Positions 11,111-22,078 of a stretch of DNA of 64,000 nucleotides are shown one piece after another. Source of the stretch: Spirochaetales bacterium (GTDB taxonomy: Bacteria > Spirochaetota > Spirochaetia > DSM-2461); NCBI GenBank assembly GCA_022360655.1, contig JAKSCK010000039.1, positions 1 to 64,000 on the forward strand, written 5' to 3'. How positions within the stretch are numbered: the first letter of the stretch is position 1; each line of letters opens with the position of its first letter. The translations under genes were made by a program, and so were the position numbers. The notes beneath the pieces were generated by a model. The model did not search any database, was not told the DNA's origin, and worked only from the letters and a program-made list of their open reading frames with translations.

Positions 11111-12082
11111 CTACTGAACGGCATCCGCTCCAACAGGATCCTGATGCATCTTCTGCTGCTCAAGGAAACGCAGAACCTGCATGTTCCCCAGGCGGCTCAG
11201 TTCAGAATTGCGGCGTTCTTCCTCACGCTCAGAGAGGATTCCCCACACATCTTCGTGGTTCAGATCAGACTCAACATCCACAATGACAGCCTGGTCATAC
11301 ACCACTGAGACATCTTTGATGTACACAATGAAATCTCCGCCTTCCACCTGAGAATCTCGGAAAAACTGGAAGCTATCCAAGGTCATGGAGGGGGCATTGC
11401 GGGGATAGAGGGGGTAGCGGCGAATCTCACGATTACGCACTTCACTGATGTAGTTGGGATTCACCCAAGTCAGTTCTCGCCAACCATCATAGTCCAGGTA
11501 TCCAAGAGGAACTTCCTGAGTCTGCTCCATCTCATTCTTCAGGACAATGGCCATCCCCATGGGGTAGTTCATCCCGTAAACATTTGCTTTAAGGGATTTA
11601 ATCACGCCCACATTTTTCACAACACCATAGCCAGTGAACTGATCACCCTTGGGAGGATTCTCAAGAATGGGGCTGGTGGCATAGGCAGGAATTGCGAAGG
11701 GAGGACGAACCCAAGCATAAGAATTAAATGAACCCTCAGGGTAATGAACCCGAACACCCATGACCTGATTTCCAGCAAACTTCTTTGCAGTATCATTAAC
11801 GGTTACTGGACGTACATAAGAGAGGGTGTCATTGGTTACGGTTCGTGAGGAACTGGAAAGCTGCACATCCCAATTGGGAACATACAGGGAAGTGTTCATG
11901 GCCGCCTTCTCTTCCTCGGTGAATCGCGTGCCGGCCACGCTGCTGAAGTCCACAAGTGTGGCCTGATGTTCGCCCTGGTAGTCGTCTAAAAGATCGCTAA
12001 AATCAATCAGGACGCTTTCCTCAGCAAAAGCCACTCCCGAGAGAATCAGGGCAGCGGCCAGGAAAACGAGAATACGTTTCAT
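11111..12082 (-). CDS. flaA: Periplasmic flagellar filament sheath protein FlaA
   Basis: A 323-aa exported protein. Residues 1-20 form a signal peptide with cleavage likely after AFA. The mature part matches spirochaete FlaA in its GVRVHYPEGSFNSYAWVRPPF region, the jelly-roll-like strands, and the DFIVYIKDVSVVYD segment near the C terminus. FlaA sheathes the periplasmic flagellum. ATG at 12082 is chosen because AGGAG precedes it and the signal peptide starts there; an in-frame upstream start at 12127 has no such support. A strong promoter lies 49-76 bases upstream and a strong terminator follows. Linkage of flaA to a che operon is also known in Borrelia. Confidence 0.93.
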   Translation of the reverse strand: MKRILVFLAAALILSGVAFAEESVLIDFSDLLDDYQGEHQATLVDFSSVAGTRFTEEEKAAMNTSLYVPNWDVQLSSSSRTVTNDTLSYVRPVTVNDTAKKFAGNQVMGVRVHYPEGSFNSYAWVRPPFAIPAYATSPILENPPKGDQFTGYGVVKNVGVIKSLKANVYGMNYPMGMAIVLKNEMEQTQEVPLGYLDYDGWRELTWVNPNYISEVRNREIRRYPLYPRNAPSMTLDSFQFFRDSQVEGGDFIVYIKDVSVVYDQAVIVDVESDLNHEDVWGILSEREEERRNSELSRLGNMQVLRFLEQQKMHQDPVGADAVQ

Positions 12083-12130
12083 AGAAGGCTCCTTTGCCAA
12101 AAAATGCATTGTTATCAACCTATCCAAAAA

Positions 12131-12210: not shown

Positions 12211-12708
12211 CTAAAGGACCTCTGCTCGGAAATATGGGGCATGAACTTGCTGCCCTTCAATGGTGAAAATCACCTCTTCAACCCGCCTGAAATTGTCAAG
12301 TATATTCTTTTCAAGAATGGCTAAGGCTTTGTTAAAATCAACAGGGACACCTGTGTTTTCGTTCTTTAAGACATTGCTTTTAAAATCGACACAAACTGTA
12401 TCATTTAGAAGAAATACAGATCGAACTTCACTCTCCCGTGGGAGAAGAGGCGCCCATTCTAAAGCTTCTGGCCCAAGCACAAGTTCCTCAAGAAAAAGCA
12501 CAATACTCTTCTCATAGGAAGAAGCCGATGGTACCCAGCGTCGCTCGGTTCCGACACGCTCCCCACTATTGCTGGGGAAATAAAAGATTCGACCATCAAC
12601 ATCTGGGCCAAAGATGAGAAGTGATAGCGAGGAGATGAGGAAGGCAACCACCAAAAGGGCCAAGGGGAGACTGGGCCCCCAGAGAATACGACGTGTTTTC
12701 GGAGTCAA
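12211..12708 (-). CDS. GerMN-domain membrane-anchored protein
   Basis: A 165-aa protein with an N-terminal membrane anchor (residues about 12-34) and an outward-facing GerMN-type domain: FLEELVLGPEALEWAPLLP, VRSVFLLNDTVCVDFKSN, and LAILEKNILDNF follow the family pattern. GerMN domains occur in envelope and sporulation proteins, often beside cell-wall enzymes, and their ligand is not established. Its start overlaps the stop of the amidase gene by four bases (ATGA), so both are probably expressed together. It is the last gene of the seven-gene operon. Confidence 0.8.
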   Translation of the reverse strand: MTPKTRRILWGPSLPLALLVVAFLISSLSLLIFGPDVDGRIFYFPSNSGERVGTERRWVPSASSYEKSIVLFLEELVLGPEALEWAPLLPRESEVRSVFLLNDTVCVDFKSNVLKNENTGVPVDFNKALAILEKNILDNFRRVEEVIFTIEGQQVHAPYFRAEVL

Positions 12709-13760
12709 AAATAACTCTCCTTGCTCTCGAAGTAACGAACAAAGTCCGCCACGCCATTATAGAGACCCTCTGTGATGCGACTCAAGTATTCTGGGCGCCT
12801 CAAACGTTGAGCTTCTGAGGGGTTTGTGAGAAAACCAATCTCCACAAGCACTGAGGCCATCCGAGCATTACGTACCACAAACCAGCTTTCCTCTCGCCTT
12901 CCTCGATTAGCAACATCGTCACCAAGATTTCCAGAAAAACCATCCAAAATCATATCAGCTAGACGAACGCTTTCATGGGTGAATTCCTCTTCCCAAAGGG
13001 CATTCACAATGGGGGCTATTCGAGAATCCAAGCCTTCAGATTTATCTTCTAGTGTCCGACGATAATCCCGGGGCAAATACCAAACCTCAAATCCTTCTGC
13101 TTTTGCATTGAGTGAAGCGTTGGCATGAATGGAGATATAAATCATTCCTTCTCGAACCCCAGTTTCTACACCATTGGCCATAGCAACCCGCTCTTCAAGA
13201 CTTGGATAAACATCGTTATCCCGTGTGAGAAGCACATTTTTTTGGGGATATCGTTCTTGCAGGGCCTGGGCCAGTCTCAAACTGATTTCCAAAACCACAT
13301 CTTTTTCCGGTAAGGGATGGAGCACATCATCCACTGGCCATGTTCGAGAAGCACCTGAATCTCGTCCACCATGACCTGGATCAATCAGAATGGTGGTGAG
13401 TCGATAAGGCTGGGGAAGGGAATCCTCCATTCCAAAGGCCGAATAAATCGCTGATGCCGCCTCTGTTGAGAAGACAAGTTGCCCATCCCTTTCAATCACG
13501 GTACCACCAGAGAGAAGTCGACCTCCATCCAAAACAAACCAAGGTTGTCCAGGTTGAAAAACAATCACTCGCCCTTCTTTCACAAGTCGCCCCTCACGTC
13601 TCCAGGGGTTCCATTGCATGGTGGCACCGCTTCGTATCAACAACTGTTCCAAGGAAACAGGTTGGGCCCAAAGAGTCCCCCAAGGGGCACAATAAAAGAG
13701 GAGCAAGCCTAGGAATAAGAGGAACTTATAAGGATGGCGAATCAAGATACCAACGTGCAC
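12705..13760 (-). CDS. N-acetylmuramoyl-L-alanine amidase (Amidase_3)
   Basis: A 351-aa exported amidase. A hydrophobic signal segment spans about residues 11-33. The catalytic domain begins near 120: ILIDPGHGGRDSGA gives the first zinc His, EKDVVLEISLRLA gives the Glu ligand, SIHANAS the second His, and VLVEIGFLTNP the C-terminal catalytic Glu. It cleaves the amide bond between MurNAc and the stem peptide in peptidoglycan. The start is GTG at 13760 with GGGAGG at a good distance, inside the end of the ATP-grasp gene (35-base overlap). Its place in a sugar-modification operon links that pathway to the envelope. Confidence 0.9.
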   Translation of the reverse strand: MHVGILIRHPYKFLLFLGLLLFYCAPWGTLWAQPVSLEQLLIRSGATMQWNPWRREGRLVKEGRVIVFQPGQPWFVLDGGRLLSGGTVIERDGQLVFSTEAASAIYSAFGMEDSLPQPYRLTTILIDPGHGGRDSGASRTWPVDDVLHPLPEKDVVLEISLRLAQALQERYPQKNVLLTRDNDVYPSLEERVAMANGVETGVREGMIYISIHANASLNAKAEGFEVWYLPRDYRRTLEDKSEGLDSRIAPIVNALWEEEFTHESVRLADMILDGFSGNLGDDVANRGRREESWFVVRNARMASVLVEIGFLTNPSEAQRLRRPEYLSRITEGLYNGVADFVRYFESKESYF

Positions 13761-15303
13761 CCATTAACCCTCCCCGGAATAAGGCTTTCCAGAAATTGGA
13801 GTTCTGCTGAGAATCCAATAACGGTTCACGGCCTTCCATGATTCGGCCCTCTTCTACAAGAATATTCAACAGAGTGCGTGCATCGCGTCCTTCCGCATCT
13901 TGGTATTCCAGAATCTCCTCACAGGGAAGCTGATAAACAAGAACGTTCCCTCGATGTCCCAAAGATGGTTGAGGTGGAAAACGCTCCCAAAGCTTTAATA
14001 ACGCCAAAGGAAGTTCTGTGATGTCTTGCTTTGCTCTCAAAGCATAGGGAGGGAATTCACTCGACTCATCAAGATAGAACCCTGTTCTTTCATCTTTTGG
14101 ATCCAACTCAAGCGTGAGGGTTTGGAGGGCCTTTTTTGCTCGGTTTTGGGCTTCTAGGGCTGTGGTTCCAAGGGCAAGAACATTCCCTACCTTTTCAACA
14201 TTATTTTTTGGAAATTGCACTGCATCACCAGATTCATACCGGAGAAACACCTCTTCCACGCCTGGAAGCTGCTGTGCTTCCTGCGAACCCCCAATCTTTT
14301 TTAGGGTTCCATCAATGGCAATCAAAGCTCTTTCTGAACAATAAAACGATTTTTTTGGCCTGCAATCTCCTGCATCTAACCCAACAGCCAGTCGAAGGGC
14401 ACCAGAGGTGGGTTGCACACCACTGGCCAAGGGCCAAGTCCATCCAGACATATACCCTCCCGATAATCGGGCTGCAATTTCACCAATCATGGGTCCCTCT
14501 TGGGTCCATTTTAAATCACCTTTTGCAGCCCCTCGTGTTAAGCCAAGAGCCTGTATACCTTTTTCAAAGGCCTCCCAGAGCCCCCTTTCTACGTCAGGAG
14601 AGCAGGAGGACGGGATGGTATGTCCTATTTCAATAAAATATGGCGCATGCGCTATATGTCGATCCGCTAGCCCACACGGAATCACTCGACCATCTTCAAC
14701 AAGGGCATCCAAGCTGAATTCCGGTCCATCCATGTAGGTTTCCACCAATGCCCGGTGACTTCGAGAATAGCCTCTGGCCGTGCTTAAGGCTTGGGGTAAT
14801 TGCTGGACATCATCAATGCGAACAACCCCTCGTGCTCCCATGCTGTCCACAGGTTTTACAACCCAAGGTCCGGGCACAGAATCTAAGACCAGTTGAAGAG
14901 AATCCTCTGCACCCATTTCCATAAAAGCTGGAGAAGGAACATCATGTTCCAGGAAGGCCTGACGCATGGCGATTTTATCAGTAGCCTTCCAGGCTGCATC
15001 GGGATGGTGACCTGGCAATCCAAAATGAGCGGCAACCTGAGAGACCGCAAAGGAAAAATCTGTTCCTGCAGTGAACACACCATCAAGTCCACCATTATCC
15101 ATCAGCTTTTGGGCCACTTCAATCAGACCATCCAAATCTTTTAAATCAACGGGAAAAAACTGATCCGCCAAATCCCGTCCAGAGGCCTCCGGATTTCCAT
15201 CAACAGCGGCAACATGCCAGCCCATTTGTTTGGCAAGTTGGAGCGCCGGTTCCTGCATTGTGCCACACCCAAGAATGAGAATTGTTTTGTTATTGTTGCT
15301 CAA
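13726..15303 (-). CDS. ATP-grasp ligase
   Basis: A 525-aa enzyme of the ATP-grasp superfamily. Residues 1-110 form a Rossmann-like preATP domain (ILILGCGTMQEPAL...VAAVDGNP). The grasp domain has WVVKPVDSMGARGVVRI (ATP lysine and glycine loop), VETYMDGPEFSLDALV, and IGEIAARLSGGY (metal-binding Glu). It resembles PurK/carbamoyl-phosphate-synthase-like ligases that join a carboxylate to an amine. The acceptor is unknown; the neighbouring genes suggest an amino-acylated or amidated sugar (inference). The start is TTG at 15303, supported by GGAGAGG just before it and the MSNNNKTILIL beginning. It overlaps the amidase by 35 bases. Confidence 0.8.
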   Translation of the reverse strand: MSNNNKTILILGCGTMQEPALQLAKQMGWHVAAVDGNPEASGRDLADQFFPVDLKDLDGLIEVAQKLMDNGGLDGVFTAGTDFSFAVSQVAAHFGLPGHHPDAAWKATDKIAMRQAFLEHDVPSPAFMEMGAEDSLQLVLDSVPGPWVVKPVDSMGARGVVRIDDVQQLPQALSTARGYSRSHRALVETYMDGPEFSLDALVEDGRVIPCGLADRHIAHAPYFIEIGHTIPSSCSPDVERGLWEAFEKGIQALGLTRGAAKGDLKWTQEGPMIGEIAARLSGGYMSGWTWPLASGVQPTSGALRLAVGLDAGDCRPKKSFYCSERALIAIDGTLKKIGGSQEAQQLPGVEEVFLRYESGDAVQFPKNNVEKVGNVLALGTTALEAQNRAKKALQTLTLELDPKDERTGFYLDESSEFPPYALRAKQDITELPLALLKLWERFPPQPSLGHRGNVLVYQLPCEEILEYQDAEGRDARTLLNILVEEGRIMEGREPLLDSQQNSNFWKALFRGGLMGARWYLDSPSL

Positions 15304-15323
15304 TGCCCTCTCCCTGCGATTCC

Positions 15324-17084
15324 TTAACGAATCCGCTCTGCATATATTTCAAATGTATCACCAAGATGAAAACAACGGCTCAAAAGAAGAAGAAACCGGT
15401 AAAGCATTGTCTGCTTTTCAAGAAAGGGAAAAAGCCGTTCAGGATGATGCCCCGTCACCCGAATATGATAGGTTTTGAAGCCATATCGGCGAAGATACTT
15501 TTTTGCCGTTCGGGGAGTCCAAATGGTGTAATGATCAGCAGGACTGGCCTGAAGAAAACGTTTTTTGTTTTTTCTTCCAGAAAGACCCGCACCATTGGGA
15601 GTGGAAAGTGCCAGAACACCCTTCTTCTCAACAAGTGACGCCAGCTGTTCCATAAAGACATCCAGCCGGGGAATGTGCTCAATGACATACCAAAGAGTCA
15701 CAACTGAAAATGTACGCCCCTCAAAAACAGCATTATTCTTCTCAAAAGGAAACCGGATTTGTTGCGCAGGAATCTCCAATTCTTGCTGAACATGGTGCAC
15801 GGCTTCAGCAGAGGCATCCGCCCCATAAGGAGTAAAACCAGCTTCTCGTGCGGCATCAAGAAAGGGACCATAGGCACAGCCCAAATCCAGAACATCCCCT
15901 TGCCGTACTTTCTTTTGGATGTGCTGAAGACGAGGACCGGCCAAAGCGCGAATACTCGCAAAATCTTCTAAATAGGTTCGGCCATATTGTGCGGCATATT
16001 CCTGACCAAAATACTCTGGACCATACTCATCCTCTTTCTCATAGAACCGATACAACCCCATCATTCCGCATTGAGGACATTGATAAAAACTTCGTTGGGG
16101 GTAACGGGCAATCACTGGAGGGAACGGATGAGAACAGGCTGCACATTGGGGACGAGGAGCAGAGAGCGGCTGAAGAAACTGAGCCATAGACGCTTCTGTT
16201 CCCTCTTGAAGAACCTCCTTCCATCTCTGACTTGCAAGATGAAGGTGCTTCCTTTTCTTATCCTGAGTCATCCACTGATTTAGGTGTTTGAAAATGTTCT
16301 TCCAGTTTGATCCATTTCTGCTCACAAAACCGGCTGAGGGAAGCTGAGCCCAATGCGATAGACTCTCATGCACAGAACTGGGATTAATTAAAATCACGGC
16401 ACATCCTGCAGCCAATGCCTCCCAGGCTGTTAAACCAAAGGATGTGATCACAAGACCAAAACAATGCAGTTGATGCTTGAATCCCTCTTGATGCGGTAAA
16501 ACCTCAACCCTTTGTGATGGGAAATCGATGCTCCTCTCTCCAGGAGGGATCACCCAGATCCGTCTTTCCTGGGGAAGGAACGCATCCAGGTGGGTGAGAA
16601 CAGGATGGGTGAGCTGAGCCGGATCTTCCCCTCCAAAACTGATCAGAACATCCCCGTCAACATCCGGTTCTCTTTTTCGAGCTGGCAAACCCAACAAATC
16701 GGTACGCAAGGTGTTTGGCATACTTCTTCTGGGACCAGGAATCGTATCTAAAACAAATGGAGCCCATTGCCGAGCATCACCATCATCATCCACCAGCAAG
16801 GGAGTTCCGGAAAAACTCATGGATTCTAAATCCTCCACAGAGGACTCTCGTCTATCCACAACCAAGAGATGGGAGAGAAACCCATTGTGTTCGTGAACAT
16901 CAAACGATGATGGAGGCTCAACCCGAACTCGGCCAAGCATGGGTGCCGGAAACTCTTCATTATGTAAAGACAAAAGATGAGTGGGAGTAGAGAAATGCTT
17001 CATCCAGCCCAGACATCGCCGGAGATGTCCACTTCCACTCCCCTTTTTCCAAACTGGAAGCAAATTGATGTGTTCAACGGGCAA
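15324..17084 (-). CDS. PseG/SpsG-like sugar-nucleotide hydrolase fused to methyltransferase
   Basis: A 586-aa bifunctional protein. Residues 1-300 resemble PseG/SpsG (GT-B fold): GSGSGHLRRCL holds the catalytic-type His, and TSFGLTAWEALAAGCAVILI matches the C-terminal nucleotide-binding part. A linker with CAAC and CPQC, probably a zinc ribbon (about 310-345), leads to a class I SAM methyltransferase with VLDLGCAYGPFLDAA (motif I) and WYVIEHI (post-II). A hydrolase, zinc ribbon and methyltransferase in one chain suggests sequential tailoring of one sugar nucleotide (inference). The start is TTG at 17084 with AGAGAGG seven bases before, overlapping the SpsF gene by 11 bases. Confidence 0.82.
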   Translation of the reverse strand: MPVEHINLLPVWKKGSGSGHLRRCLGWMKHFSTPTHLLSLHNEEFPAPMLGRVRVEPPSSFDVHEHNGFLSHLLVVDRRESSVEDLESMSFSGTPLLVDDDGDARQWAPFVLDTIPGPRRSMPNTLRTDLLGLPARKREPDVDGDVLISFGGEDPAQLTHPVLTHLDAFLPQERRIWVIPPGERSIDFPSQRVEVLPHQEGFKHQLHCFGLVITSFGLTAWEALAAGCAVILINPSSVHESLSHWAQLPSAGFVSRNGSNWKNIFKHLNQWMTQDKKRKHLHLASQRWKEVLQEGTEASMAQFLQPLSAPRPQCAACSHPFPPVIARYPQRSFYQCPQCGMMGLYRFYEKEDEYGPEYFGQEYAAQYGRTYLEDFASIRALAGPRLQHIQKKVRQGDVLDLGCAYGPFLDAAREAGFTPYGADASAEAVHHVQQELEIPAQQIRFPFEKNNAVFEGRTFSVVTLWYVIEHIPRLDVFMEQLASLVEKKGVLALSTPNGAGLSGRKNKKRFLQASPADHYTIWTPRTAKKYLRRYGFKTYHIRVTGHHPERLFPFLEKQTMLYRFLLLLSRCFHLGDTFEIYAERIR

Positions 17085-17751
17085 GAATCGGCCTCTCTTG
17101 GAGCCAGGGAAGAATCTCTGGAAGGTCTAAAGGAATTCCCTTGTACAGATGATTAAATAATTCTGATAGGAACATATAGTCCTCAGAAGTATCCAAAGTC
17201 AGTCGATAATCCCCCCAAAAAGATGGTGGAGCCATGGGTTGTTCCACTTGAAAATGTTCAGAATGGCGATACAAATAAGGGCAAACATGCTCCCGTTCAT
17301 ACGATTCAGAAGTCTCCTGAGAAGCCTGAACAAGAGCCTGAGCTCGGACCACCTCCACACCTGTTCCTAAGGGCATCCCCAACAATCCACAGTAATCCGC
17401 TTGTTTTTGTGAAAAATGCTCCAGAGCTTTTTGTGCCAGAAGCGCAGAAACCAAGGGGTTATCCCCAGTTGCCCGGACAACCGTTTGGACTCCATATTCT
17501 TGGATGGCTTTCACATATCGACCAAGAACATCGCTTTTGGGCCCAACAAAAATGTCCCAACCTTCTTGGTGGGCAATGGATTTTAACGGCTCCACAGAAT
17601 CTTCTGTGGTCAAAAGAACACGATGATCAGCTGGAACCCGATTCAAGCTTTCCATGGCATGCGCCACCACAGGTTTTCCTGCAAGGGGCAAAAGAGCTTT
17701 TTGGGGAAGACGCAACGAATCCAACCGAACTTGAAGAAAAATCCCTCTCAT
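17074..17751 (-). CDS. SpsF-like cytidylyl/nucleotidyltransferase
   Basis: A 225-aa enzyme of the SpsF/CMP-sugar synthetase type. It begins MRGIFLQVRLDSLRLPQKAL, the glycine-poor variant of the NTP-binding R-x-x-S-x-R-L-P-x-K signature, followed by LLTTEDS and ATGDNPLV (metal-binding Asp). It would activate a sugar as an NDP- or CMP-sugar. ATG at 17751 is preferred over 17772 because the family starts here, GGGGGA precedes it, and it overlaps the upstream stop as ATGA. It lies between the GT-A gene and the PseG/SpsG-like fusion, a pairing also seen in legionaminic/pseudaminic-type and spore-coat sugar pathways. Confidence 0.85.
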   Translation of the reverse strand: MRGIFLQVRLDSLRLPQKALLPLAGKPVVAHAMESLNRVPADHRVLLTTEDSVEPLKSIAHQEGWDIFVGPKSDVLGRYVKAIQEYGVQTVVRATGDNPLVSALLAQKALEHFSQKQADYCGLLGMPLGTGVEVVRAQALVQASQETSESYEREHVCPYLYRHSEHFQVEQPMAPPSFWGDYRLTLDTSEDYMFLSELFNHLYKGIPLDLPEILPWLQERPILAR

Positions 17752-18737
17752 TCGCCATTCCCCCAATCCCATTGACGCGTCAAGGAGGCGGCATCACGGC
17801 GAAAACGATACTGATTTTGCTGCACCCAGTGACGAATTTCCTTCCAGGTTTCTCGTGAACTTGTGGCTGATTCACCAGAAAACTTCATATAAGCCCACCA
17901 ACGAGCTCGAGGAAGTCGAGCCATTCCTCCTCGAAATCGAATGGCTAAGGTTTTGAGAAAGAAGCGGCGGTATCCTGCCCCTGTTGAGGCATCAAGGGAT
18001 GGAGAATAGTCAAGATAACCAACTCGAAGAGAAGGATGGGTGACGGGGCCATCTCCAAACAACCAACATCGCATTCCATATTCCATCACCTGCCACCAGG
18101 ATTCCTCTATGCGCGCATCAAATCCACCCACCGCCATATGAAGGTCTTTTTTATAGATTCCGGCATAATCCCAGGGCACAAGAGTGGGTAACTCACGGGA
18201 TTCTGGAAGCACAGGTTGAAAATCAAACTGTCCTTTGGAACCAGGGACCGGGCCAATGACAGAAGGGAGAAGTTCTCCTCGTCCATCCCGGAACACTGGT
18301 ACGGTGCACACACGGTTCCGGTCAGCAATTTTGGCAAAGACTCGGGAGGAAATGTCTGCCGCTTTGAGGGTCATATCACCATGCAAAACAAAGACATGAT
18401 CACTCACAGCCTCTCGGAATGCCGCATCAATACGGGCTCCAGTATTAGAGCTCCGGGAAAAGACAATAAACCGAAGATTCTCATGCCGACGCACCAAGGC
18501 ATCCACATCATAAGGACAAGGACTGGATTCGAGTGAAATGACCTCACGAGCACCAATTTTGCAGAGTTCATCAAACAAATCTCGACGGAACTGACGTGAA
18601 CCACGATTCACAAGAACAATGGAGAGCCCTGGTCTATTCTTTGATTCAGTATCAACACCATTCCCTCCCACCACGGTGTAGGGTCCGGCATCTGGTGTGA
18701 CGGAATCTCGCTCAAAAGTTGAAGATGTAGTATTCAT
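17748..18737 (-). CDS. GT-A-type glycosyltransferase-like protein
   Basis: A 329-aa soluble protein with a family-2-like glycosyltransferase core: LSIVLVNRGSRQFRRDLFDEL, then ENLRFIVFSRSSNTGARIDAAF, and DHVFVLHGDMTL with the D-x-D-like metal site reduced to GDM. Later VPWDYAGIYKKDLHMAVGGFD matches the acceptor-side region. Donor and acceptor are unknown. ATG at 18737 is chosen; longer starts lie deep in the preceding gene. Even so it overlaps that gene by 26 bases, and it overlaps the SpsF gene by four. Position in the operon suggests it transfers the sugar made by its neighbours. Confidence 0.75.
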   Translation of the reverse strand: MNTTSSTFERDSVTPDAGPYTVVGGNGVDTESKNRPGLSIVLVNRGSRQFRRDLFDELCKIGAREVISLESSPCPYDVDALVRRHENLRFIVFSRSSNTGARIDAAFREAVSDHVFVLHGDMTLKAADISSRVFAKIADRNRVCTVPVFRDGRGELLPSVIGPVPGSKGQFDFQPVLPESRELPTLVPWDYAGIYKKDLHMAVGGFDARIEESWWQVMEYGMRCWLFGDGPVTHPSLRVGYLDYSPSLDASTGAGYRRFFLKTLAIRFRGGMARLPRARWWAYMKFSGESATSSRETWKEIRHWVQQNQYRFRRDAASLTRQWDWGNGE

Positions 18738-20277
18738 CACAGTTCTCACAACACGAAGGATACTCACCAGCCACATGGTGGCGATGCCAAGAATCGGCGG
18801 CAGCCCAAATCTCCGAGAGTTTCCCTTGAAAAGCATTTCCTAAGGAAGGGATTCGCCCCCGTTCTACAACACAAAGAGGAACTTCTCCATCCAATCGAAT
18901 GGGCAGATCCCGCTTCAGATGCCAGCAAGGGAATCGATCCAATGGAGCTAAATCTGCCGGTCTATGATCATCCCGGAGACCAGCACAAGCATTATATTTC
19001 TGAATGATGACCTGAGCACCAGCTTCTGTCCAATAGGAATAAAACGCTTCAAGATGCTCCTCATTCTCTTCCATGCGAACCGCTTGAATCCAACATTGAG
19101 TTGGAAAAAGTTGTGAAAGTCGAAGAGCTGTGGCCTCGGCTTCAATTTGCCCCTCTCCCCTTAACTGCTGATAAAGGGAAGGATCATGGGCATCCAGGGT
19201 CACAATCCACATGAGTCGCTCAGAGGCTCCCCAATCCTGGGCAAGGTCCTCCAAAACCTTGTGATCCCAACCAAGTCCGGCTGTTTCAATAAGAACACGG
19301 GAGGAGGGGCCGCCCTCCTTCCCTTCACCTGCTTTTAACGCTCCACGAATGAACTGCTCCACCTGAGGATGCAGAGCTGGATCTCCATCCAAGGACAAAT
19401 CCAAAACAGCATCACCAGCAAAGTCCAAAATTTGGTGACATAATGACTCAAAGTGATGGTATTCCATGAATCGGTCTTTACCATCCTCAGAACGTTGTGG
19501 AAGATCTGAAAGAGCCTGCTGTGGACGTTGATCACAGATCTGAATGGGAAAATATGCGGGTCTATCTCGTAATAAATCCCGTCGTTGAGGAATCAACTGA
19601 CAGAGCGATTCCGCATCAACCCCTCCGGCGGCCCATAGAGCTTCCGTTATGGCCACATCTCTCAACGTGGCAGCAGCAAGAACAACTCGTTCCATTCTCA
19701 AATCCACCGGAGACAGGTGTGTTTCCACATCAAAGGAATTGATATCTTTTCTCAGAATCTCAAACAAAGCATCCCGTCCCACCTTCCGTCCCTTGTCTTG
19801 AACAAGAGAATTCAAGCGGGCAGGAAAGCTTGGAGACAAAATTTCGGGTGCTAAACCAATCGGGTAGCCATCTGCAAAGGTGTACTCTGCACCAAAACTC
19901 TGATGAAGTTTCCACAGAGTCTCACTCAGGGCAGAATCCAAAAGTGGCTGATCACCCCAGGCATAAAACAAACTCTGACATAGGGTTCCATCTGGGAGAG
20001 GCAGAGCAGCGGCCTCCGTGAGTGCCTGAACAAGCGCACTCTCATCCCATGTATCTTGGAGAATCACCTGGTGAAGTAATGATTCTTGTACCAACCCTTC
20101 TGATGTGAATCCATCAGGCAATGCATCTTGAGGTCCCGCAATCAGCACAATTCCAGCAAGCTCTGGAACGGATGCAGCCCATGCAAGTGCTCCCTCCAAC
20201 GCAGAGGAGCGGCCCACAATGGGGCTCCGGGAAAGGGGTGAAAGCCCCACAATGTTCAATACGGCCAGATTTCCCAT
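18712..20277 (-). CDS. Spiro-SPASM protein: NTase-like + degenerate radical SAM + SPASM
   Basis: A 521-aa protein. The first 200 residues recall a sugar nucleotidyltransferase (VLNIVGLSPLSRSPI, AWGDQPLLD). The middle resembles a radical SAM barrel: LDLSLDGDPALHPQ corresponds to the GEP region, but where CxxxCxxC is expected (FPIQICDQRPQQAL) only one Cys remains. The C-terminal 85 residues form a SPASM-type cluster-binding domain, with FPCWHLKRD, PLCVVERG and YPSCCENCDEY. This layout agrees with what I recall of a spirochaete-specific 'spiro-SPASM' family. It is first in the operon with GGGGG before the ATG. Function is not known to me. Confidence 0.8.
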   Translation of the reverse strand: MGNLAVLNIVGLSPLSRSPIVGRSSALEGALAWAASVPELAGIVLIAGPQDALPDGFTSEGLVQESLLHQVILQDTWDESALVQALTEAAALPLPDGTLCQSLFYAWGDQPLLDSALSETLWKLHQSFGAEYTFADGYPIGLAPEILSPSFPARLNSLVQDKGRKVGRDALFEILRKDINSFDVETHLSPVDLRMERVVLAAATLRDVAITEALWAAGGVDAESLCQLIPQRRDLLRDRPAYFPIQICDQRPQQALSDLPQRSEDGKDRFMEYHHFESLCHQILDFAGDAVLDLSLDGDPALHPQVEQFIRGALKAGEGKEGGPSSRVLIETAGLGWDHKVLEDLAQDWGASERLMWIVTLDAHDPSLYQQLRGEGQIEAEATALRLSQLFPTQCWIQAVRMEENEEHLEAFYSYWTEAGAQVIIQKYNACAGLRDDHRPADLAPLDRFPCWHLKRDLPIRLDGEVPLCVVERGRIPSLGNAFQGKLSEIWAAADSWHRHHVAGEYPSCCENCDEYYIFNF

Positions 20278-20345: not shown

Positions 20346-20864
20346 ATGAAGCAGCACCGGAACCCGTTTCCTCCTCACCTTCTCATTCTCATTGCGATGA
20401 TTTTCCCCTTTCTTTTTTTGGGCTGTATGAGCCATGAAAGACTTTCGAAGGTCGTCAAGCAATTAGGATGGGAATATTCCTTAGACGCAGAAGGGGATTA
20501 CCGCATTCAGGTTCCTCTTGAATCTGGTGGTACCCACACTGTGGGAATCAGTTCTCATGCCACCATTTTGGAAGGCGAATTTGCCGTTCGTGATGTCTGG
20601 GCCGTGGCCGCCCGAATTCCTGGAGAACTCCCAGATGGTCTGGCTGAAAACTTGATGAGTGACAGCTGGGGAACCCGTTCCTGGGGGACCTGGGCACTGG
20701 CAGGCATCACCTCCGATGGAAAACGTGTGTTGGTTCGCCTTGGACGAATACCGGTGGATGCAGAAAAGAAGATGATGGCTTCTGTTCTCCTCGAAACTGC
20801 AAGAACGGCTTATCAAATGCAGAATGCACTCTCTGCCATTGACGCCTCAGGTGAGCAGGAATGA
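20346..20864 (+). CDS. Putative lipoprotein, 172 aa
   Basis: The N terminus has a hydrophobic stretch ending in FLFLGC, a lipobox with the lipidated Cys at about 27. The mature part is a mixed alpha/beta domain with no motif I recognise; blocks such as YRIQVPLESGGTHTVGIS and WGTWALAGITSDGKRVLVRLGRIP look strand rich. It is divergent from the spiro-SPASM operon and its stop overlaps the xseA start as ATGA, so it is co-transcribed with the exonuclease VII genes. A functional link to DNA repair is not evident. Confidence 0.75.
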   Translation: MKQHRNPFPPHLLILIAMIFPFLFLGCMSHERLSKVVKQLGWEYSLDAEGDYRIQVPLESGGTHTVGISSHATILEGEFAVRDVWAVAARIPGELPDGLAENLMSDSWGTRSWGTWALAGITSDGKRVLVRLGRIPVDAEKKMMASVLLETARTAYQMQNALSAIDASGEQE

Positions 20865-22078
20865 ACCCCATATGGACCGTAAGCGAACTGACAGAGGCCA
20901 TAAAGAATCAACTGCAAGGTCATTTTCCTCGGATTATGGTGACCGGAGAGGTGACAAATTGCCGCCCCTCAGGGGCTGGGCATGTGTATTTTACTCTCAA
21001 AGATCAAGGGGCACTCCTCCCTGCCGCATTATTTCGGGGTAGACGAGCAACGTGCTCTGTGCAGCCTGCCGATGGTTTGCAGGTGATTGCCACAGGGAAA
21101 ATTGATGTGTACCCCCCCCGAGGGGCCTATCAACTCATCGTGGATCAGGTCAGACCGGCTGGACGTGGCGCCCTTCTGGAAGAACTGGAAGCCAGAAAAA
21201 ATGCATTGGCTGCAGAAGGTCTGTTTCGCCAAGATCAAAAGAAAAAGCTTCCCCCCTATCCCCATCGTGTGGCCATCATCACCTCCCCTACTGGAGCTGC
21301 TGTTCAAGATATTCTTCGTGTTCTTTCACGGCGAGCTGCGGCTCCACAAATCACGATTCTTCCCTGTCCAGTCCAAGGAAGTGATGCTGCGGAAAGAATT
21401 GCCCATCAAATCACCTCTGTAGGACGCTATGCCTTAGGAGAAGTGGCCATCGTGGCTCGAGGTGGTGGTTCCCTAGAAGATTTGATGTGCTTCAATGATG
21501 AGCGTGTGGTTCGGGCCATTGCAGGGTGCTCCATCCCCATTGTGAGTGGAGTGGGACATGAAACAGACACCACCTTGACGGATTTAGCCGCAGACATTCG
21601 TGCTGCCACACCCTCAGCAGCAGCAGAATTGGTGAGTGAAAAGTCTGAGGATCTTCTTGGAAAAGCTCAAAACTTTCAGCGGGAAACCGCCGACATTCTC
21701 CATTCACGGCTCAGAGAGGCCTGGGGACGGTGGGATGCGCGAAACCCCATCCAACTTGAGCGCAGCATTCGGGAGCATTTGGAATGGGCCATTCGCCGAG
21801 AAGACGAAGCACGCATGGTGATGAATCAGGAAATGATCAATCGAAAAGAATCGGCTCGCCATCGCTTAACACTGGCTCTTCAAGGCTTGCATGATGCCTC
21901 ACCCAAAGCGCTTATGGAACGCGGTTATGCCCGAGTAAGCCACAATGGCCATACCATCTGCGATGCCTCTGAACTTCACCCACAATCCGAAATCTTGTTG
22001 GAATTTGCCCAGGGTCGGGCAAAAGCCTTGGTCACAGAGATTGAGACTGAAACGGTGTTGAACCGTGAAGAGATTTGA
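20861..22078 (+). CDS. xseA: Exodeoxyribonuclease VII large subunit
   Basis: A 405-aa subunit. Residues 1-100 form an OB-fold DNA-binding domain (WTVSELTEAIKNQL, GEVTNCRPSGAGHVYFTLKD). The nuclease domain has VAIITSPTGAAVQDI, ARGGGSLEDL and SGVGHETD, all conserved in XseA, followed by a long helical region. With XseB it degrades single-stranded DNA to acid-soluble pieces. Length is near the usual 400-450. GGTGAG lies six bases before the ATG, which overlaps the lipoprotein stop. Confidence 0.96.
   Translation: MNPIWTVSELTEAIKNQLQGHFPRIMVTGEVTNCRPSGAGHVYFTLKDQGALLPAALFRGRRATCSVQPADGLQVIATGKIDVYPPRGAYQLIVDQVRPAGRGALLEELEARKNALAAEGLFRQDQKKKLPPYPHRVAIITSPTGAAVQDILRVLSRRAAAPQITILPCPVQGSDAAERIAHQITSVGRYALGEVAIVARGGGSLEDLMCFNDERVVRAIAGCSIPIVSGVGHETDTTLTDLAADIRAATPSAAAELVSEKSEDLLGKAQNFQRETADILHSRLREAWGRWDARNPIQLERSIREHLEWAIRREDEARMVMNQEMINRKESARHRLTLALQGLHDASPKALMERGYARVSHNGHTICDASELHPQSEILLEFAQGRAKALVTEIETETVLNREEI

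Follow-up and report, generated by a model that had tools for sequence, protein, structure and literature searches.

The glycosylation of flagellins with nonulosonic acids is already known from Campylobacter, Helicobacter and Aeromonas, in which a pseudaminic acid pathway (PseB-C-H-G-I-F) operates together with Maf, a flagellin glycosyltransferase family; gene types of the same kind (SpsF, the PseG-like SpsG and the NeuB-like SpsE) are found in the sps legionaminic acid pathway of Bacillus subtilis, which serves the spore crust and not flagella, and for which we know of no spiro-SPASM protein or ATP-grasp ligase of the family described below. The flagellin glycan of the spirochaete Treponema denticola is reportedly a pseudaminic-type acid carrying a 2-methoxy-4,5,6-trihydroxyhexanoyl amide. 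The FlaB proteins of this species bear a 450.2-Da glycan that is essential to filament assembly and motility (PMC9481697, citing Kurniyati 2017). Its glycosylation motifs, VEVSQL and DRIAS, are kept in Leptospira FlaBs and have both serines substituted in B. burgdorferi (PMC7431986), and in Leptospira putative FlaB1 glycans were placed at the sheath interface, between core and sheath (PMC13144727). Here we analysed a 64,000-nucleotide stretch of DNA from a Spirochaetales bacterium (contig JAKSCK010000039.1, positions 1 to 64,000; hereafter the window), in which a seven-gene operon lies beside flaA at 12211-20277. We consider this operon to be composite, with a probability of roughly 0.78: four genes (module 1: spiro-SPASM, SpsF-like, PseG-like plus methyltransferase, and ATP-grasp) would carry out the late steps of a pseudaminic/legionaminic-type nonulosonic acid pathway for O-glycosylation of FlaB, and the other three (module 2: GT-A, amidase and GerMN) would form a separate envelope module. 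What is new is a conserved spirochaete version of flagellar nonulosonate glycosylation, with an ATP-grasp ligase, a fused methyltransferase and a decaying radical-SAM (S-adenosylmethionine) protein.

The operon and its described counterparts

The open reading frames (ORFs) of the window and profile searches place seven intact genes on the minus strand. The first encodes the spiro-SPASM protein (18712..20277; TIGR04321, 459.7 bits against a curated cut-off of 250, positions 3-510 of 510), in which an SpsF-like nucleotidyltransferase domain precedes a radical-SAM-type barrel and a SPASM cluster domain. It is followed by a glycosyltransferase of predicted GT-A fold (17748..18737, from the conserved ATG at 18737; the longest ORF opens at 18836) and by an SpsF-like cytidylyltransferase (17074..17772), which has the CTP_transf_3 domain (PF02348, 4.2e-25) and the nucleotide-binding motif (R..S.RLP.K) of a CMP-sugar synthetase and is predicted to activate a sugar acid with cytidine monophosphate (CMP). 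Next come a PseG/SpsG-like domain with a GSGHLRR motif, fused to a methyltransferase (MT; 15324..17084; Methyltransf_23 PF13489, 7.7e-25), and a ligase whose ATP-grasp fold (PF13535, 1.4e-13) and LAL_C2 domain (PF18603, 3.9e-17) are confirmed above cut-off and which is predicted to acylate the sugar by forming an amide (13726..15303). The last two genes encode an N-acetylmuramoyl-L-alanine amidase (Amidase_3, PF01520, 3.3e-43; 12705..13760, with a true start that may be internal to the ORF) and a GerMN-domain protein with an N-terminal membrane segment (PF10646, 7e-09; 12211..12708). The first-pass annotation of this DNA had described the seven minus-strand genes as almost gapless, which the ORFs, the domain matches and the measured junctions bear out: spiro-SPASM and GT-A overlap by 26 nucleotides (nt), GT-A and SpsF by 25 nt, SpsF and PseG-MT by 11 nt, ATP-grasp and amidase by 35 nt, and amidase and GerMN by 4 nt, with a gap of 20 nt between PseG-MT and ATP-grasp.

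The T. denticola system belongs to the same phylum, and the genome that we take to be that of T. denticola (G165) carries spiro-SPASM, an SpsF-PseG-MT fusion, the ATP-grasp ligase, a PseC-like protein and Maf, with NeuB found in a genome of the same genus; the acceptor motifs are conserved in the window's FlaBs. It differs in that its ATP-grasp and flaA genes sit at other loci, its SpsF, PseG and methyltransferase are one fused protein, and a glycan structure such as that given above is not known for the window's organism. Like the Campylobacter, Helicobacter and Aeromonas systems, the window's genome (3.6 Mb in 273 contigs) encodes PseB/PseC-like proteins, a PseG-like motif, a NeuB-type synthase, a cytidylyltransferase and Maf, but all of these diverge from the curated equivalogs, and the ATP-grasp ligase, the methyltransferase fusion and spiro-SPASM are spirochaete extras. 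No PseH acetyltransferase was found above cut-off in 33 genomes, and the very small genome that we take to be that of T. pallidum (G056) gave no PseH match at all; the classical PseH was thus discarded as a pathway member, and another acyltransferase may replace it.

An amide ligase together with a methyltransferase would fit the structure reported for the T. denticola glycan. The earlier statement that this gene set has no described product was too strong, since the 450.2-Da FlaB glycan is known (PMC9481697) and is the obvious candidate product of module 1. Our literature search found no paper naming spiro-SPASM or TIGR04321 and none tying genes to the T. denticola flagellin glycan, the original 2017 glycan paper lying outside that search. 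The analysis thus names a small conserved set of candidate genes for a known, little-understood flagellin modification needed for T. denticola swimming, a set carried also by what appears to be the reduced genome of the syphilis spirochaete. It offers a reason for the Borrelia difference described below, sets the sugar pathway apart from the neighbouring envelope module, and makes the genes behind the flagellin glycan directly testable.

Linkage, flagella and acceptor sites across the phylum

We gathered 80 named loci and 40 from other genomes and scored the neighbours with profiles made from the window proteins. The order spiro-SPASM, GT-A, SpsF, PseG-MT, ATP-grasp, amidase, GerMN, flaA is common to most of class Spirochaetia; the complete set through flaA is present and co-directional at 57 of the 89 loci whose sequence continues for 8.5 kb or more past spiro-SPASM (at least four pairs among them are duplicates), and flaA holds the corresponding position at 61. 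This arrangement exceeds chance, and the linkage that the first-pass annotation saw in one genome extends to other spirochaetes. Outside the class, spiro-SPASM mostly has just SpsF and PseG adjoining it, and it is solitary in the genomes of family f25, presumably Brachyspira-like. In Treponema-type genomes SpsF, PseG and the methyltransferase form a single protein of about 850 residues, and these three therefore belong to one pathway.

The phylum survey covered 296 genomes: 251 flagellated and non-Borrelia, 30 of Borrelia type (family f5, with a main contig of about 0.9-1 Mb, which synteny and FlaB sequence suggest to be Borrelia) and 15 without flagellin (families f9 and f12, the latter presumably Sphaerochaeta-like). 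Spiro-SPASM was matched (E<=0.001) in 248 of the 251 flagellated genomes and in none of the 30 Borrelia-type genomes, which do have flagellin, and no match rose above the curated cut-off in the 15 flagellin-less ones; the ATP-grasp ligase (profile A3) gave 242/251, 0/30 and 0/15, respectively. Where a flagellated genome misses either gene, its assembly is in most cases incomplete or fragmented. In smaller panels, the Maf/MptE-like family followed module 1 without exception (31/31 module-1 genomes, 0/5 Borrelia-type, 0/8 flagellin-less). The NeuB-type synthase was found at full strength in all tested module-1 genomes save one that is 83% complete and in 0/5 Borrelia-type genomes, although the flagellin-less G227 has a strong one, and a PseC-like transaminase was present in every module-1 genome tested and in 0/5 Borrelia-type genomes, with related transaminases in some flagellin-less ones. 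These results show that module 1 tracks flagella.

The acceptor sites follow the same pattern. Both sampled FlaB copies of the window's genome have Ser/Ser at the VEVSQL/DRIAS sites and most module-1 genomes have both serines, whereas in Borrelia-type genomes they are replaced by Glu/Asp in five of five. This family has neither the sugar enzymes nor the two serines, so that the loss of the enzymes and that of the acceptor sites fall within one clade. Taken together, the four module-1 genes very probably build an unusual acidic sugar that is placed on spirochaete flagella.

The remaining pathway genes are encoded elsewhere in the window's genome: a NeuB-type synthase (PF03102, 2.2e-60, with a SAF domain) beside serS (L211), adjacent PseB/CapD-like and PseC-like genes (L252), and a Maf protein (L308, 4799-6445; MptE-like, 5.1e-25; Maf_flag10_N, 3.5e-12). 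From these genes we infer what happens at each step and what is formed, as follows. The unlinked PseB/PseC-like pair would make a UDP-amino sugar (UDP, uridine diphosphate), the PseG-like domain would free the sugar from UDP, the unlinked NeuB-type synthase would add pyruvate, and the SpsF-like protein would yield the CMP-sugar. The ATP-grasp ligase would join an acid to the sugar amine as an amide, the fused methyltransferase would methylate the sugar or its acyl group, and the Maf-type transferase would transfer the glycan to Ser/Thr of FlaB, where it would mediate filament assembly and contact with the sheath. The envelope module of GT-A, amidase and GerMN would share the locus with flaA.

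Several points weigh against this assignment. The Borrelia-type loss is a single clade and one evolutionary event, not thirty, and the flagellin-less families count as two. All of the PseG, PseB, PseC and NeuB-type proteins fall under their NCBIfam equivalog cut-offs (PseG-like, TIGR03590, 20.7 bits against 153.55; PseB-like, 161 of 407.75; PseC-like, 288 of 423.5; NeuB-type, below both the PseI and the NnaB cut-off), so that the exact sugar is not fixed by these matches. One serine is missing in some module-1 genomes (Asn/Ser in the Brachyspira-like ones, S/K in G003, N/D/F at the second site in G096), and some FlaB copies of certain module-1 genomes lack the exact motif. Finally, the operon adjoins flaA, yet the sheath protein FlaA is not the reported glycoprotein, and we regard FlaA as an unlikely target.

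Some further gene associations touch these steps. Outside class Spirochaetia the ATP-grasp ligase is fused to a hydroxy-acid dehydrogenase domain dependent on flavin mononucleotide (L234, L235 and L233; ORFs of about 720-745 amino acids), a domain that would likewise fit the structure reported for the T. denticola glycan, and in the T. pallidum-like G056 a dehydrogenase of similar type is encoded some 1 kb past the SpsF-PseG-MT fusion (L111, 15341-16219). A strong match was absent from the window's genome and several others, and the dehydrogenase, set aside as a universal partner, is only suggestive. In G056, a gene that looks by sequence like a 2-keto-3-deoxy-6-phosphogluconate aldolase lies about 6 kb from the NeuB-type gene (L212, 16512-17141, minus strand); its product might supply a 3-deoxyhexonic acid from which the acyl group of the glycan is made. 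The synthase is physically linked to the operon in two small, related genomes (L219 and L220), where a NeuB-type gene and serS come close after the run flaA-cheA-cheW-cheX-cheY.

Spiro-SPASM and its radical-SAM motif

The window protein retains the SPASM cysteines C451, C469, C510 and C513, each present in at least 119 of 121 alignment rows. The radical-SAM motif CX3CX2C is absent, and ICDQRPQQALSD stands in its place. Across the alignment, the motif is intact in 91 rows and lost in 30 (the window and 29 of its 120 relatives), and on a quick tree with some long branches its state changed at least five separate times, the most parsimonious count being eight. In the clade that contains the window protein, the motif survives in four relatives and is lost from three rows, one of them the window's. 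The T. pallidum-like (L111) and T. denticola-type (L112) genomes are among the members without it, and from the latter it follows that making the T. denticola glycan does not require a radical-SAM centre. The nearest named relatives of the window protein, at about 53% identity, come from uncultured Spirochaetaceae/Spirochaetales; in the nearest of all (L031, 1432-3015) the gene is split by an in-frame stop, which could stem from faulty sequencing of a metagenome bin, and the third radical-SAM cysteine is lost.

The structural model (predicted local distance difference test, pLDDT, 86) has a barrel fold matching SuiB, anSME and BtrN in PDB. With these SPASM radical-SAM enzymes the window protein shares the fold and the SPASM cluster domain; it differs from them in lacking the cysteines of the SAM-binding cluster and in having an N-terminal domain related to SpsF (199 columns, E 5e-5) and to the Leptospira cytidylyltransferase structure 6oew. 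That spiro-SPASM acts in the pathway as a BtrN-like radical-SAM sugar dehydrogenase is unlikely: the profile match to BtrN (4m7t, 1.3e-13) and the majority of members with an intact motif speak for it, but the repeated losses, reaching both Treponema genomes, speak against it, and for the window protein the missing motif rules out a standard radical-SAM enzyme. A tentative suggestion, which we hold at somewhat less than even odds, is that spirochaetes have a distinct route to a flagellar sugar, in which the nonulosonate receives an O-methylated hydroxy acid from the ATP-grasp ligase and not from an acyl-CoA enzyme, and that spiro-SPASM, a fused cytidylyltransferase-SPASM protein that was once a radical-SAM sugar enzyme, has repeatedly lost its radical-SAM centre but, still bearing the auxiliary iron-sulfur cluster, is kept in this pathway for a function that needs no radical chemistry. 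Its role is the least certain of module 1; binding or cytidylyl transfer would be our guess.

Surface glycans, the envelope module and neighbouring genes

The sugar-acid pathway could instead feed a surface glycan (lipopolysaccharide, capsule or lipoprotein glycan), its linkage to flaA being historical. Surface use is common, there are envelope genes in the operon, and nonulosonate clusters are present in Leptospira, which produces sugars of this kind (PMC3438082). We nevertheless find this improbable, because in two families the module-1 genes are missing together with flagellin, because these genes track Maf, a flagellin transferase family, because their Borrelia-type loss coincides with that of both FlaB serines, and because the T. 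pallidum-like G056 retains the set in its very small genome.

Module 2 is an envelope unit distinct from the sugar pathway. GT-A (profile A2), amidase and GerMN remain together without the sugar genes, beside flaA in Borrelia-type f5 (L225 and L226) and also in flagellin-less f9 (L231 and L232), and for this reason they are taken as a separate module; conversely, GT-A is missing from G246 (L243), which does carry the sugar module together with amidase, GerMN and flaA. In T. denticola, reverse transcription PCR joins flaA to TDE1713-1716 (PMC9481697), and the published primers, mapped onto G019, a genome of the same genus as G165, identify TDE1714 as the amidase and TDE1713 as GerMN. That all seven genes act jointly on the cell wall or envelope, tailoring peptidoglycan or a secondary polymer around the periplasmic flagella, is very unlikely, as this co-transcription and the presence of GT-A, amidase and GerMN in the operon are outweighed by the separation of the two modules in f5, f9 and G246, for which a single seven-gene pathway was rejected. 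The first-pass annotation had proposed a glycan for flagella or for the envelope; its flagellar half gains support from the co-occurrence, the Borrelia co-loss and the acceptor loss, and its single shared pathway gives way to two modules.

The GT-A model (pLDDT 88.6) has polypeptide GalNAc-transferases as its best PDB matches (probability 1.00, template-modelling score 0.56), a predicted-fold likeness that is not specific, and its metal-binding DXD is represented by a single conserved D in a [WHQ]-[NGS]-D-M segment. GT-A is unlikely to be the flagellin transferase: it is kept without flagellin in f9, and neither G246 nor the genomes outside the class have it. Maf, by contrast, tracks module 1 exactly. 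In flagellin-less f12 a distant GT-A relative lies next to a proB-like kinase gene (L244, 9333-10286; L245, 9197-10114), and in L245 it additionally adjoins an Amidase_3 gene.

Downstream of GerMN, an 83-nt gap contains a sigma70-like promoter on the minus strand (12158-12131; TTGACA-16-TATAGT, matching the consensus at 11/12 positions), followed by flaA, which encodes the filament sheath protein (11111..12127 as the longest ORF, minus strand; PF04620, 2.4e-75), and then by cheA. A strong terminator-like hairpin of 12 pairs lies 3' of flaA at 11088-11060 (minus strand); with this hairpin and its own near-consensus promoter, flaA may be expressed separately from the operon. Upstream of spiro-SPASM, xseA and the orphan gene orf172, whose product is lipoprotein-like, are divergently oriented (20346-22078, plus strand) in an arrangement that is conserved, and orf172 is retained beside GT-A in Borrelia-type genomes too.

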